DNA from: Oscillospiraceae bacterium
Lineage (GTDB): Bacteria; Bacillota; Clostridia; Oscillospirales; Acutalibacteraceae
Reading direction: 5' to 3'
Assembly: GCA_015065605.1 (NCBI GenBank)
Contig: SVPZ01000002.1
Span: 51,288-115,287 of the forward strand
DNA: 64,000 bases
A program made the translations under genes and the position numbers. Below the pieces are notes generated by a model that saw only the letters and a list, made by a program, of their open reading frames with translations, was not told where the DNA came from and did no database searches. Positions 11,386 through 45,897 of this stretch are shown here, one piece after another (the first letter of the stretch is position 1; every line of letters starts with the position of its first letter).

Positions 11386-12306
11386 ATGAAATTTACAATG
11401 TTTGCGGATTTTCATCATGCGCCCGGTCGCTTTATGCGCGGAGGTTTTGAGGATCTTGATTTTATTTTTGAACGTGCCGAAAAAGAAGAAGTTGATTTTA
11501 TTATCCATGCAGGCGACCTTACTCACGGGCCTTCAAAACACCTTGATTTTGTGAATAAGTATAATAATTTTCATATTCCTACCTATAACTGTCTTGGTAA
11601 TCACGATGCCGACGGAACACCTTACGAGGAAACGCTTAAACTATATAATATGGAAAACGGCCATTACTATTTTGACAACGGCGGTTACCGTATAATCGTT
11701 ATGGATCCCAACTATTTTGAAAAAGACGGAAAGTACGTTCATTATAGTATGGGTAACCAATACGAAAACTTAAAAACTTGCGATTGGGTTCCGCCGGAGC
11801 AGGTTGAATGGTTAAAGGAAACTATTGCTACAGCACCCGGCCCTTGTATTGTTATTGCGCACGAAAGTTTTGAACGCGAGTCGTACGGTGTAAAAAATAT
11901 GATGGAAATACGCAAAATTTTCAACGACGCTAACGCTAAAAAAACTAACAGCGTTCTTATGGTAATTAACGGTCACCATCACCGTGATTTTGTTCGTATT
12001 CTTGACGGTATTATTTATTTCGATATGAATTCCACCAACTATGAATGGGTGGCAAAGCCCCATAACTGTTACCCCGCAGAACTTATGGAAAAATATTACA
12101 GTCTTAAAAACTGCGTATCCTACGATGCTCCTATTCACGCAGTAATAACTGTAGAAGGCACTACCGTTACCTGTGAAGGTATGGAAACCACAATGTTTAT
12201 GGGTGTTAAGCGCGAGGACACAGGAAACGACAGATTTGACCAAGCGGGAAGGGAAGTAACCCCCACTGTTCAGTCCTTTAAAATTACGTTAAGCAAACAC
12301 GAATAA
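11386..12306 (+). CDS. Metallophosphoesterase with element-derived C-terminus
   Basis: 306-aa calcineurin-like phosphoesterase with all five metal-site blocks: FADFHHA, HAGDLTHG, LGNHDADG, IAHESFER and NGHHHRDF. No signal peptide, so cytoplasmic. RBS GGGAGG lies 8 nt before the ATG. Family members hydrolyse phosphodiesters or phosphomonoesters; the substrate is not evident, though the neighbouring glycan genes make a sugar-linked ester possible. The last four codons and the stop (AGC AAA CAC GAA TAA) are the terminal repeat of a MITE inserted exactly at the codon boundary after Leu302; the reconstructed empty site reads TTA TAG, so the ancestral protein ended four residues earlier. Confidence 0.9.
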   Translation: MKFTMFADFHHAPGRFMRGGFEDLDFIFERAEKEEVDFIIHAGDLTHGPSKHLDFVNKYNNFHIPTYNCLGNHDADGTPYEETLKLYNMENGHYYFDNGGYRIIVMDPNYFEKDGKYVHYSMGNQYENLKTCDWVPPEQVEWLKETIATAPGPCIVIAHESFERESYGVKNMMEIRKIFNDANAKKTNSVLMVINGHHHRDFVRILDGIIYFDMNSTNYEWVAKPHNCYPAELMEKYYSLKNCVSYDAPIHAVITVEGTTVTCEGMETTMFMGVKREDTGNDRFDQAGREVTPTVQSFKITLSKHE

Positions 12307-12562
12307 TCCGAACCTGATTTTAAAGGCTCAATTTTCGTCTTTGCATTGTTAAAATACTCGTTAATCCGTCAGGATTAACTGCGTTTTGTGCCTCGCACAG
12401 CCAAAATTTCAACTCTTTAAAATTCTGCGACCTAAAACGGGCAGAATTTCGAGTGATTTTTGGTGCGGAAGAATCCGTCAGGCTAACGCCTACGGGTGAT
12501 GACAAACCGAAAAGTGCCGAAAGAATGCCGTTTTAGGCAGGTTCGGATTATTCGTGTTTGCT
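12292..12562. mobile_element. 271-bp MITE, copy 1 (TA-flanked, perfect terminal inverted repeats)
   Basis: Body of 271 bp bounded by 25-bp perfect inverted repeats (left end AGCAAACACGAATAATCCGA..., right end its exact complement) and flanked on both sides by TA (12290-12291 and 12563-12564), as expected for a TA target duplication of the IS630/Tc1-mariner type. Inside is the palindrome GTTAATCC-GTCA-GGATTAAC (12360-12379). No transposase. A second copy at 44230-44500 has the same length and differs at two positions only. It overlaps the 3' end of the phosphoesterase gene. Confidence 0.92.
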
Positions 12563-12605
12563 TATAGTTATTCTAAATGTTTTTTCGAAAACCATAATCA
12601 TCATA

Positions 12606-40196: not shown

Positions 40197-40691
40197 ATGA
40201 ATATGCGAAAGAGCATCAGAGGTGGAATTTTCAGAGCAGGTACGGGAAGCGCTATGGAATATATTGTAAGCGCCAAAAAGGTTGGTGCAACAGCAGACGG
40301 AAGATATGCATTTTCTCCTTACGGCTCAAGTTTTTCACCCTCGCCTGAATGTAAAACAAAAGGAGTACTCTCCTGTATTAAATCGTTTACAAAATATGAT
40401 TTAAGTGATATAATAAACGGCGGTCCGTTAACCCTTGAAATTCACGATACGGTTTTTAGAAATAATGATGGAATTAAAAAGGTGGCGAAGCTGGTTAAAT
40501 GCTTTATAGACCGCGGAGGTCATCAGCTACAGCTGAACTCGGTTAATCGCGACGTGCTTATAAACGCTCAAAAAAATCCTGAAGATTATAAAAATCTGAT
40601 AGTCAGAGTATGGGGTTGGAGTGGATATTTTACCGAACTTGCCAAAGAATATCAGGACCATATAATAAAAAGAACCGAATTTACAATTTAA
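40197..40691 (+). pseudogene. C-terminal fragment of a PflD-type glycyl radical enzyme
   Basis: 164-codon frame equivalent to only the last fifth of a dehydratase/PflD-type glycyl radical enzyme (normally about 800 aa). Recognisable blocks: AGTGSAMEYIVSAKK, NGGPLTLEIHDTVFRN, GGHQLQLNSVNRDVLINAQ and the radical motif RVWGWSGYF with Gly140, ending with the usual DHIIKRTEF. The catalytic Cys barrel is absent. No convincing RBS precedes the ATG at 40197 or the internal one at 40254. Most likely a decayed gene end, but a stand-alone radical domain akin to GrcA/YfiD (127 aa) is a real alternative. It belongs to a different subclass from the intact enzyme at 23422. Confidence 0.75.
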
Positions 40692-40705: not shown

Positions 40706-40734
40706 TGACAAACGGTACGTGTTTGTGTATAATA
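40706..40734 (+). promoter_or_regulatory. Consensus promoter of rplJL
   Basis: Perfect TTGACA (40706-40711), 17-nt spacer, perfect TATAAT (40729-40734). Confidence 0.88.
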
Positions 40735-40739
40735 CTTTT

Positions 40740-40870
40740 GTTGCATTACTTGAGACAGTAGGTTCCAACTTTGGAGTAAGCTTAGCGCCTACCGAGGTGA
40801 GCAGAACATTATAATTTATTTTTAATGTTTCAGTCTGTTCCTCGTCTCAGGGAACAGACTTTTTTTATTA
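40740..40870 (+). promoter_or_regulatory. L10 leader with attenuator
   Basis: Typical ribosomal L10 leader between promoter and rplJ: the segment GCGCCTACCGAGGTGAGCAG (40787-40806) is the recognised core for binding of the L10(L12)4 complex, followed by a 10-bp terminator stem AGTCTGTTCC/GGAACAGACT and T7 (40832-40867). Binding of excess L10-L12 is known to favour termination. Confidence 0.85.
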
Positions 40871-40891
40871 TTTTTTACGGAGGTGAAATTA

Positions 40892-43682: not shown

Positions 43683-44123
43683 TCATCCTAGAGTTTTAAA
43701 ACCGTAATTAAAAAGTAATTCGTTGATTTCAGGAATAGATAGATTTTTGAAAAATCCGTATATGACAACGCTGTCAAAGGGGAGTTTTATATATAAAGGC
43801 GGATATCCCGCGCTTTTTAATAACGTCTGAGTTTCATCGAAATTCAAACCCATACCTATCGCTAAAGCTAAAAGCTTTTTGCGGTCAGGTAAACGCAGTC
43901 CCGAAAAAATCTGATAGGAATAAACTTCAGAAAGTCCCGAATTTTTTATAATATCAGATTTATGAAGATTTTTTTCCTTGATTAATTCATCCAATAATTC
44001 CGAAAGAGGTTTTTCGGTAATATATTCCTTATTTTCGTTGTAAAATGTGTTGAAATCTTCATTTAAATGGAGTTCTTCAACAATTTTAGAAGTGTCTTTA
44101 GTCAATTTCCTCAATCCCAACAT
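43683..44123 (-). CDS. HTH protein of the kinase operon
   Basis: 146-aa protein with a Cro/CI-like HTH (KSDIIKNSGLSEVYSYQIFS) followed by DRKKLLALAIGMGLNFDETQ, a pattern shared by a family of clostridial regulators found beside Ser/Thr kinases. The C-terminal 50 residues (VVIYGFFKNLSIPEINELL) are conserved in that family. The promoter TATAAT ends only about 13 nt upstream of the ATG at 44123 and no RBS is visible, so the mRNA would be almost leaderless; an alternative TTG at 44105 with AGG close by gives a better N-terminus for the family (LTKDTSKIVEEL). Confidence 0.75.
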   Translation of the reverse strand: MLGLRKLTKDTSKIVEELHLNEDFNTFYNENKEYITEKPLSELLDELIKEKNLHKSDIIKNSGLSEVYSYQIFSGLRLPDRKKLLALAIGMGLNFDETQTLLKSAGYPPLYIKLPFDSVVIYGFFKNLSIPEINELLFNYGFKTLG

Positions 44124-44193: not shown

Positions 44194-44222
44194 TTGCTTT
44201 AATAAAAGTTGTGTAGTATAAT
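44194..44222 (+). promoter_or_regulatory. Promoter upstream of MITE copy 2 and the dockerin/LRR gene
   Basis: TTGCTT (44194-44199), 17-nt spacer, perfect TATAAT (44217-44222). The expected transcription start is at about 44229, the first bases of the MITE. Confidence 0.65.
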
Positions 44223-44229
44223 CAGTATA

Positions 44230-44500
44230 AGCAAACACGAATAATCCGAACCTGATTTTAAAGGCTCAATTTTCGTCTTTGCATTGTTAAAATACTCGTT
44301 AATCCGTCAGGATTAACTGCGTTTTGTGCCTCGCACAGCCAAAAATTCAACTCTTTAAAATTCTGCGACCTAAAACGGACAGAATTTCGAGTGATTTTTG
44401 GTGCGGAAGAATCCGTCAGGCTAACGCCTACGGGTGATGACAAACCGAAAAGTGCCGAAAGAATGCCGTTTTAGGCAGGTTCGGATTATTCGTGTTTGCT
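44230..44500. mobile_element. 271-bp MITE, copy 2
   Basis: Same length and ends as the copy at 12292-12562, flanked by TA at 44228-44229 and 44501-44502. Differs at two positions: T/A in the CCAAAATTTC run and G/A in AAAACGGGCAG. Both copies are in the same orientation in the window. It lies between a promoter and the start codon of the dockerin/LRR protein gene. Confidence 0.92.
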
Positions 44501-44523
44501 TAAGTAAATTTAGGGTGGCAAGT

Positions 44524-45897
44524 ATGAAGAAAATTATATCGTTTATTTTATTTATTTGCATATTAATATCTTGTGTTAATTGTATTTCTTTTTCTGTTTC
44601 AGCGCTTAGCGGAACCACAGGGGAATGTAGTTGGCAACTTGACGGAAAAGTGCTTTATATTAACGGTAACGGAAAAATGGCTGATTATCAGGGCGAGGAT
44701 ATTCCGTGGGGAAATGATTTTACCGAGGTTATTATAGGTGAAGGCGTTACCGAAATCGGTGAATTTGCGTTTGCTTATACGTCGGTAAGTAAGGTTAGCC
44801 TTGCCGAAAGTGTAGAAGGAATCAATTTTGGAGCATTCTTAGCTGCGCCTATAAAAGAAATCACCTTTGGTGAAAACGTTAAATATATTGATGCGGTTGC
44901 TTTCGAAGGCTCAAAGGTTGAAAAAATAACCTTCAAGGGCGCCACCTTCCTTAATTCAAATGCATTTGATTATTGCGAAAACCTCACAGAAATTGATTTC
45001 GGCAATGGTGGAGTCAGAATAGGTTCTTGTGTTTTTTCCGGTTGCTCGGCTATTAAAAAACTTAATCTTGAAACTGTTGAGGAGATAGGCGGTGCGGCTT
45101 TTGGCGGCTGTACAGCGATTAAACAGATTACTATAGGAAATGAAATTAAAGAGATAGGCGGCGCGGCTTTTTCAGGATGTATTTCTCTTGAGAGCGCGAC
45201 TATTGGCGATAACGTTGAAAAAATAAACGACTACGCGTTTGCCGGTTGCACAGGTTTAAAAGAAGTGATTTTCGGTGCAAAAATGAAAGAGGTTGGCGTT
45301 GAGGCGTTCCTTGACTGTCCATCTCTTGAAAAAATAGTGCTTAACGGTAATGCAGTTAACTTCGGATATAACGCTATATACAATACGGCGTATTTTAATA
45401 ATGAAGATAATTGGGAAGACGGCGTACTATACTTAGAAAACGTGTTGGTTGCTGTAAAAGATACCTTTGACGGAGTATATACCATAAAAAAAGGAACTAA
45501 AATTATCAGTAGTTACGCATTTTTAAGAACTTCGTCTTTGGCTGTGCTGTACGTTCCGAACAGTATGGAAAAAATAGCTGATTCTGCTTTTGAGGAGTGT
45601 ATATCGCTGTTGGAGGTTTATTACGAAGGCGATGAAGAAACGTGGCTTAGCTTGAATGAAAATTATTTTAAAACCAATAATGAAGCTCTTGTATATGCAT
45701 ACGTAAACTTCCAAACAGATAATGTCTTGGGGGATTGTGACGGCGACAGTACGCTTACTACGACTGATTTGGCAGTTCTTAAACTTATCCTTTCGGGAAT
45801 AGAAAAAAGAAACAACAACCTTCCTGATATAAATCAAGACGGAGTATTTGATGTAGTGGACCTGGCAACCCTTAAACTTATGTTAGCAAATATATAA
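44524..45897 (+). CDS. Secreted BspA-like LRR protein with dockerin
   Basis: 457-aa secreted protein. Signal peptide (KKIISFILFICILISCVNCISF... to about residue 28), then BspA-type LRR_5 repeats (about 50-380; units such as AFSGCISLESATIGDNVEKI) and a C-terminal type I dockerin (about 398-457) with LGDCDGDSTLTTTDLAVLKL and DINQDGVFDVVDLATLKL. It should bind a cohesin scaffold and mediate binding to hosts, other cells or polymers. The start at 44524 follows GGGTGG; a frame extended to 44434 would begin inside the MITE and is rejected. Confidence 0.88.
   Translation: MKKIISFILFICILISCVNCISFSVSALSGTTGECSWQLDGKVLYINGNGKMADYQGEDIPWGNDFTEVIIGEGVTEIGEFAFAYTSVSKVSLAESVEGINFGAFLAAPIKEITFGENVKYIDAVAFEGSKVEKITFKGATFLNSNAFDYCENLTEIDFGNGGVRIGSCVFSGCSAIKKLNLETVEEIGGAAFGGCTAIKQITIGNEIKEIGGAAFSGCISLESATIGDNVEKINDYAFAGCTGLKEVIFGAKMKEVGVEAFLDCPSLEKIVLNGNAVNFGYNAIYNTAYFNNEDNWEDGVLYLENVLVAVKDTFDGVYTIKKGTKIISSYAFLRTSSLAVLYVPNSMEKIADSAFEECISLLEVYYEGDEETWLSLNENYFKTNNEALVYAYVNFQTDNVLGDCDGDSTLTTTDLAVLKLILSGIEKRNNNLPDINQDGVFDVVDLATLKLMLANI

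Follow-up and report, generated by a model that had tools for sequence, protein, structure and literature searches.

The DNA analyzed here carries two copies of a repeat that probably belongs to a family of short, TA-duplicating insertion elements, present in 76 of 391 sampled genomes of the class Clostridia and likely mobilized in trans by a transposase that our searches did not turn up. Several copies are near-identical, sites occur filled in one species and empty in another, a clean empty site has a single TA, the length of most members varies little, the core is conserved and the arms stay paired while the ends vary.

Two copies of a 271-bp element

The window, meaning the whole 64-kb stretch of DNA under analysis, contains two elements of 271 bp, copy 1 (12292–12562) and copy 2 (44230–44500), each bounded by terminal inverted repeats of 25 bp that are perfect; the two differ at 2 of 271 positions (L001 versus L003). 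All four of their ends contain the 20-mer AGCAAACACGAATAATCCGA without a mismatch, where 0.02 matches would be expected with up to three mismatches allowed. Sequence comparison therefore confirmed the original prediction of two elements, 269/271 identical, with perfect 25-bp ends and TA bounds, and its interval 12290–12564 is copy 1 plus its two TAs. It had also seen no transposase in the window, and a Pfam scan of 55 window ORFs (from 111 of at least 80 aa, many overlapping) found none. The features of the two copies are:

12290..12291, no strand: left TA target duplication, copy 1 (sequence; duplication shown at the empty site of a sister copy)
12292..12562, + strand: copy 1, 271-bp element (covariance model R1, 266 bits)
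12292..12316, + strand: left 25-bp terminal inverted repeat, copy 1 (sequence)
12349..12360, + strand: conserved core motif TTAAAATACTCG, copy 1 (column identity in family alignments)
12360..12379, + strand: core hairpin, copy 1, 8-bp stem and 4-nt loop (family Watson-Crick covariation)
12538..12562, - strand: right 25-bp terminal inverted repeat, copy 1 (sequence)
12563..12564, no strand: right TA, copy 1 (sequence)
44228..44229, no strand: left TA, copy 2 (sequence)
44230..44500, + strand: copy 2, 271-bp element (covariance model R1, 272 bits)
44230..44254, + strand: left terminal inverted repeat, copy 2 (sequence)
44287..44317, + strand: core motif and core hairpin, copy 2 (sequence)
44476..44500, - strand: right terminal inverted repeat, copy 2 (sequence)
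44501..44502, no strand: right TA, copy 2 (sequence)

Copies and empty sites in the host genome and a related species

The copy-number search proposed with the original prediction, run on the window's own genome (G000, a draft of 2.27 Mb in 57 contigs), returned many copies: seven full ones, five cut at contig ends, two 154-bp forms and five single-ended remnants of about 75 bp each. The seven full copies differ pairwise at 1 to 5 positions. Complete copies were found without requiring TA, and all nine (seven of 271 bp, two of 154 bp) have TA on both sides; no complete copy outside TA was seen in G000, in keeping with the TA-bounded insertion that had been claimed. The element is short, has terminal inverted repeats and occurs in several copies, as expected of a miniature inverted-repeat transposable element (MITE), and at 271 bp it has no space for a transposase gene, which makes it non-autonomous.

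We compared G000 by syntenic flanks with G001, a species of the same genus, which is empty at four G000 sites that hold one full copy, two 154-bp forms and one remnant. At C17:39879, occupied in G000 by a 154-bp form, the empty site is clean: G001 has a single TA versus TA-element-TA in G000, and the joined flanks match at 232 of 240 bases without a gap. The sites C17:23193 (full copy), C7:12566 (154-bp form) and C7:25077 (remnant) are empty in diverged sequence. Because the one clean empty site has one TA and not two, the TA is a target duplication, which bears out the earlier reading; target site duplication, also a feature of MITEs, is thus seen at the one clean site, with three further empty sites lying in diverged sequence. 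Low-identity candidates for empty sites at other loci were left out. The G001 comparison yielded no empty site for the window's own two copies: the right flank of copy 1 resembles G001:C75 at 97%, starting 34 bp beyond the element, and its left side differs; no clear syntenic match was found for the flanks of copy 2.

Elements in G000 and G001 are 97–99% identical, whereas the syntenic flanks are 66–85% identical (one other gene region, 97%). This difference indicates that movement was recent, as had been proposed, and recent movement together with likely exchange between species would fit these identities best.

The two 154-bp forms lie on separate contigs, have one common deletion junction and are one base apart, so the shortened form probably moved in its own right. 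It is without the core hairpin and is missing much of both arms; short forms elsewhere retain one arm each (L355/L356 and L357). Since the coreless form occurs at two sites, the core is, strictly speaking, dispensable for movement, and the one-armed forms show that a full pair of arms is not indispensable either.

The broken side of the remnants L015 and L018–L021 (G000) and L088, L090 and L092–L094 (G001) often meets TA by eye, as if the deletions extended from the interior up to the very end of the element. At about 2350–2700 of L021 (G000 contig C23), a different repeat (AACAATGATTTTTGACATAAAAAACGGGACGATG...) occurs twice within 400 bp.

Spread across Clostridia

Within the order, blastn found relatives in 22 of 394 genomes, counting G000 itself. 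A core pattern matched at least 118 stretches; the 80 records among the matches listed are all MAGs, and their titles read Clostridia, Eubacterium, Oscillospiraceae or Ruminococcaceae, from which the class name used here is taken. The class-wide figure comes from a covariance model built from 40 diverse elements, with the own genome again among the 76 positive genomes; 66 of these have matches at E ≤ 1e-10, where model E-values are rough and match counts per genome are lower bounds. Most of the class-scan matches listed are 270–282 bp including the TAs, and some are shorter, cut or longer.

From 174 core copies we obtained 94 elements with matched ends, dropping the other 80; 85 of the 94 are 260–280 bp, nine being dropped further for length, and 81 are 270–275 bp, TAs excluded. 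This set required TA and matched ends, so that TA and end pairing are there by construction; its interior pairs and its ratio of G-U to A-C mismatches are independent of the selection criteria. A second set of 60 elements was found by the covariance model, whose structure leans towards pairing, and was examined with flanks; after 13 short or redundant rows were dropped, 47 more distant elements remained. Strictly symmetrical TA/TA flanks 40 of the 60, compared with one each for the controls AT and CG; symmetrical GC occurs at 29 of 60, but this GC lies inside the repeat. The other 20 are without strictly symmetrical TA, several having TA on one side only or none.

Members sometimes neighbor one another (L310, 1229–1499 and 1501–1776; L308, 924–1201 and 1501–1776; L273, 2688–2853 and 2852–2992). 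The adjacent members in L273 have different end types, and such pairs possibly reflect insertion beside an older copy.

Variable ends, a conserved core and a two-armed fold

In the 40 diverse elements, mean column identity is 0.57/0.56 for the outer 13 bp and 0.81/0.86 for the next 13 bp, compared with 0.99 for the core TTAAAATACTCG. In the 47 more distant elements the same values are 0.54/0.55 and 0.63/0.69, and the core falls to 0.72, so the contrast between core and ends is weaker there. Two genomes, G187 and G095, each have two end types on elements of the family. Ends that vary between copies had been named as evidence against the recently mobile MITE family; they do not vary within G000, but they do across the family, between lineages.

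The predicted fold of the 271-bp element is strong (z −9.6), a terminal stem closing two arms. Two-sided changes occur at 55 of 90 pairs, 95.0% of cells pair compared with 77.7% in shuffled alignments, and the covariation score is 0.465 compared with 0.150 when shuffled and at most 0.084 when slid.

A terminal repeat resembling a tRNA T-arm (GGGGTTCGANTCCCC-like) was seen at 7 of 60 right ends, compared with a mean of 0.115 in shuffles, all in distant elements (L327, L330, L334, L336, L345, L353 and L359); in the first set it occurs in 0 of 40. ARAGORN, run on six of these seven loci (L330 left out), found no tRNA.

Insertion surroundings

The first 15 bases of copy 1 end a Metallophos ORF (11386–12306), supplying its last residues, SKHE, and its stop at 12304–12306. 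Copy 2 lies in the spacer between the diverging genes 43683–44123 (-) and 44524–45897 (+), upstream of the LRR_5/dockerin gene and ahead of its likely ribosome-binding site; a TATAAT hexamer (44217–44222) was noticed by eye just upstream of the element. Elsewhere in the window, a stand-alone glycyl-radical domain protein (40197–40691) is encoded with the ribosomal L1 gene on one side and the L10 leader and gene on the other, the leader (RF00557) scoring 66 bits at 40731–40874.

In 83 elements, a ribosome-binding site and start codon directly adjoin 33 of 166 ends, compared with 121 of 3251 intergenic TA ends (Fisher 6e-14); the second set has 14 such ends of 118. Insertion upstream of ribosome-binding sites is over-represented, which probably reflects tolerance or a target preference. 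An orientation bias of 26:7 in one set did not recur in the second (7:7), so we do not generalize it. We also discarded insertion into tRNA genes: ARAGORN on 20 loci found one tRNA only (L165), away from the element.

Probable pairing at the level of DNA

If the fold served a one-strand RNA, G-U pairs should exceed A-C mismatches. Counted on pairs predicted from both strands alike, the two are about equally rare: 92:84 in the 40 elements (57:51 in the interior alone) and 126:127 in the 47 others, 218 versus 211 in both sets together, with 20:3 in a control of 16 tRNAs from the collected loci. Other mismatches number 150 in the first set and 323 cells in the second. The missing G-U excess points to pairing that is maintained in DNA rather than in a one-strand RNA, as far as alignments can tell; equal counts could also reflect an RNA function on two strands or template-switch correction.

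A structured RNA acting from the insertion site, a 5′-UTR stabilizer or regulator kept for the benefit of the host, would account for the strong fold and for the excess of ends next to ribosome-binding sites and start codons. We nevertheless consider it improbable, given the tRNA control, the inconsistent orientation bias and Rfam, in which copy 1 had no match at E ≤ 1 and seven loci of relatives had none at the gathering score. The near-identical copies also argue against it, as pairing among them is lost one side at a time: of the one-sided changes in 42 elements forming 11 clusters, 80 break a Watson-Crick pair and 32 create one, and a further 11 changes are two-sided and stay paired.

Those 32 and 11 changes, together with the strand symmetry of the Watson-Crick covariation, are what would be expected if template-switch (quasi-palindrome) correction during replication, and not selection, maintained the pairing. 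This account seems to us unlikely: the same clusters still carry the 80 one-sided breaks, so correction of the arms is not fast, and correction alone leaves the sequence conservation of the core motif unexplained. Pairing is lost in single copies yet retained in lineages, as would be expected if selection acted on active source copies; such selection would leave unspecified the step that needs pairing.

Search for a mobilizing transposase

The original prediction had assigned the element to an IS630/Tc1-mariner-type transposase acting in trans. The MITE build and the TA duplication stand; an IS630-type DDE transposase, by contrast, was not found in the genome. A DDE_3 search (PF13358, E ≤ 0.001) was negative in all six draft genomes searched, and the control search was positive in 3 of 14 known genomes. 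A TA target by itself is no proof of IS630/Tc1-mariner.

The expected autonomous insertion sequence (IS) with the same 25-bp ends was not seen in G000, G001, eight further drafts or the collected loci. With up to three mismatches, the end pattern occurs at 30 sites in G000 and 21 in G001; of the 30, full copies account for 14, contig ends for 5, the two 154-bp forms for 4 and remnants for 5, and the other 2 are weak sites standing alone. Ten single-site loci (two in G000, eight in G001), aligned to the element and read around the site, had no facing pair of ends at transposon distance. The eight further genomes gave 59 end sites in six of them (none in G054 and G212); among sites read by eye, facing neighbors are about 150–430 bp apart, and larger gaps lie between separate elements. 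Scripted pairing over the collected loci returned three end pairs longer than 290 bp (294, 428 and 5756 bp), the last of them probably two elements. Because draft assemblies break at the element, an autonomous copy may have gone unbinned; where no end pair was found for a core copy (80 cases), the copy is at a contig or locus edge in 50. Searches of phage records and plasmid records gave no lead, and two core patterns had no match in viral contigs; three viral matches to an 18-base end sequence, without TA and without a partner end nearby, were set aside as chance.

An ordinary IS630/Tc1-mariner MITE, whose ends derive from an IS630-type element with a transposase that recognizes their sequence, and whose interior reflects only shared descent and recent horizontal spread, is possible, if doubtful. 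The TA duplication, the perfect 25-bp ends, the near-identical copies and the coreless form at two sites would all follow from it, and pneumococcal RUP is a precedent described in the available text of a review (PMC2229807). The negative DDE_3 search and the lack of an observed IS with these ends weigh against it, as do ends that are more variable than the core while internal stems covary.

Hairpins at the DNA level also recall the IS200/IS605- or RAYT-type Y1 transposases, which would move folded single strands, and Y1_Tnp occurs in 12 of 20 genomes searched (the 20 include G002, which has no blastn match to the element). G000 has no Y1_Tnp match, however, and we think this route very improbable. 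To our knowledge, terminal inverted repeats combined with a TA duplication are foreign to Y1 transposition.

Relation to known repeat elements

REP and REPIN sequences, mobilized by RAYT, resemble the 271-bp family in being palindromic DNA repeats that move in trans. REPs are only 20–40 bp, according to the accessible part of PMC3733652, and G000 lacks a Y1 match.

Other comparisons draw on accessible sections of the sources cited. A 2007 review describes bacterial repeats of less than 200 bp, most with TA ends, and in those sections names a matching transposase for RUP only (PMC2229807). A 2024 review traces MITEs mainly to IS elements, and the words Clostridi- and Firmicutes are absent from its main text as available (PMC10969869). 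A literature search (including PMC2267715), with most subscription papers outside its scope, returned no recognized description of the 271-bp family.

ERIC/IRU of enterobacteria is similarly short and non-autonomous with TA termini, and is mostly intergenic, present in many species and predicted to form a stable hairpin transcript (PMC2229807, PMC10969869). ERIC/RU-1 measures 127 bp (PMC2759123) and has 7-bp terminal inverted repeats (PMC2229807), whereas the 271-bp family, compared by description, is mostly 270–282 bp with two internal arms, has 25-bp ends in G000 and has ends that differ between lineages. Correia/NEMIS of Neisseria shares TA termini, a target duplication and a hairpin, with 24-bp terminal inverted repeats, but comes in 107- and 155-bp forms (PMC2229807). 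RUP of S. pneumoniae is non-autonomous, targets TA and has been proposed to be mobilized in trans (PMC2229807); it differs in its 107 bp and in that IS630-Spn1 has matching ends, whereas no such element was seen for the 271-bp family. CIR of Caulobacter has a two-armed predicted fold with its arms joined by a linker (PMC2229807), whereas in the 271-bp family a long terminal stem closes both arms. In our judgement, the family belongs among the TA-type bacterial MITEs (ERIC, Correia, RUP) and is itself newly described.

Discussion

We envision a cycle in which source copies would keep their mobility only as long as the arms are able to pair in DNA, and in which the mobilizing enzyme would likely recognize TA together with an outer stem, paired or extruded, and depend less on any single end sequence. 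After insertion, single copies would probably decay as deletions remove an arm, the middle part or an end, and sites immediately ahead of ribosome-binding sites probably tolerate insertion or are preferred for it. The stronger form of this idea, that across a class-wide element the transposition machinery reads shape (TA and a paired DNA stem) and not sequence, is one that we hold tentatively and regard as rather unlikely as yet. If it were true, the ends would be free to drift provided that both change together, and the folded DNA arms would be kept through selection on source copies.

The family also carries a warning for work on draft genomes of these bacteria, which break where the element lies. 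Its mobilizer should be findable in these Clostridia, where paired and unpaired ends could be compared. A short element of little length variation that ranges over many taxonomic families of a single class, with DNA-level pairing and drifting ends, makes testable how TA-type MITEs without a known transposase, such as ERIC and Correia, move.
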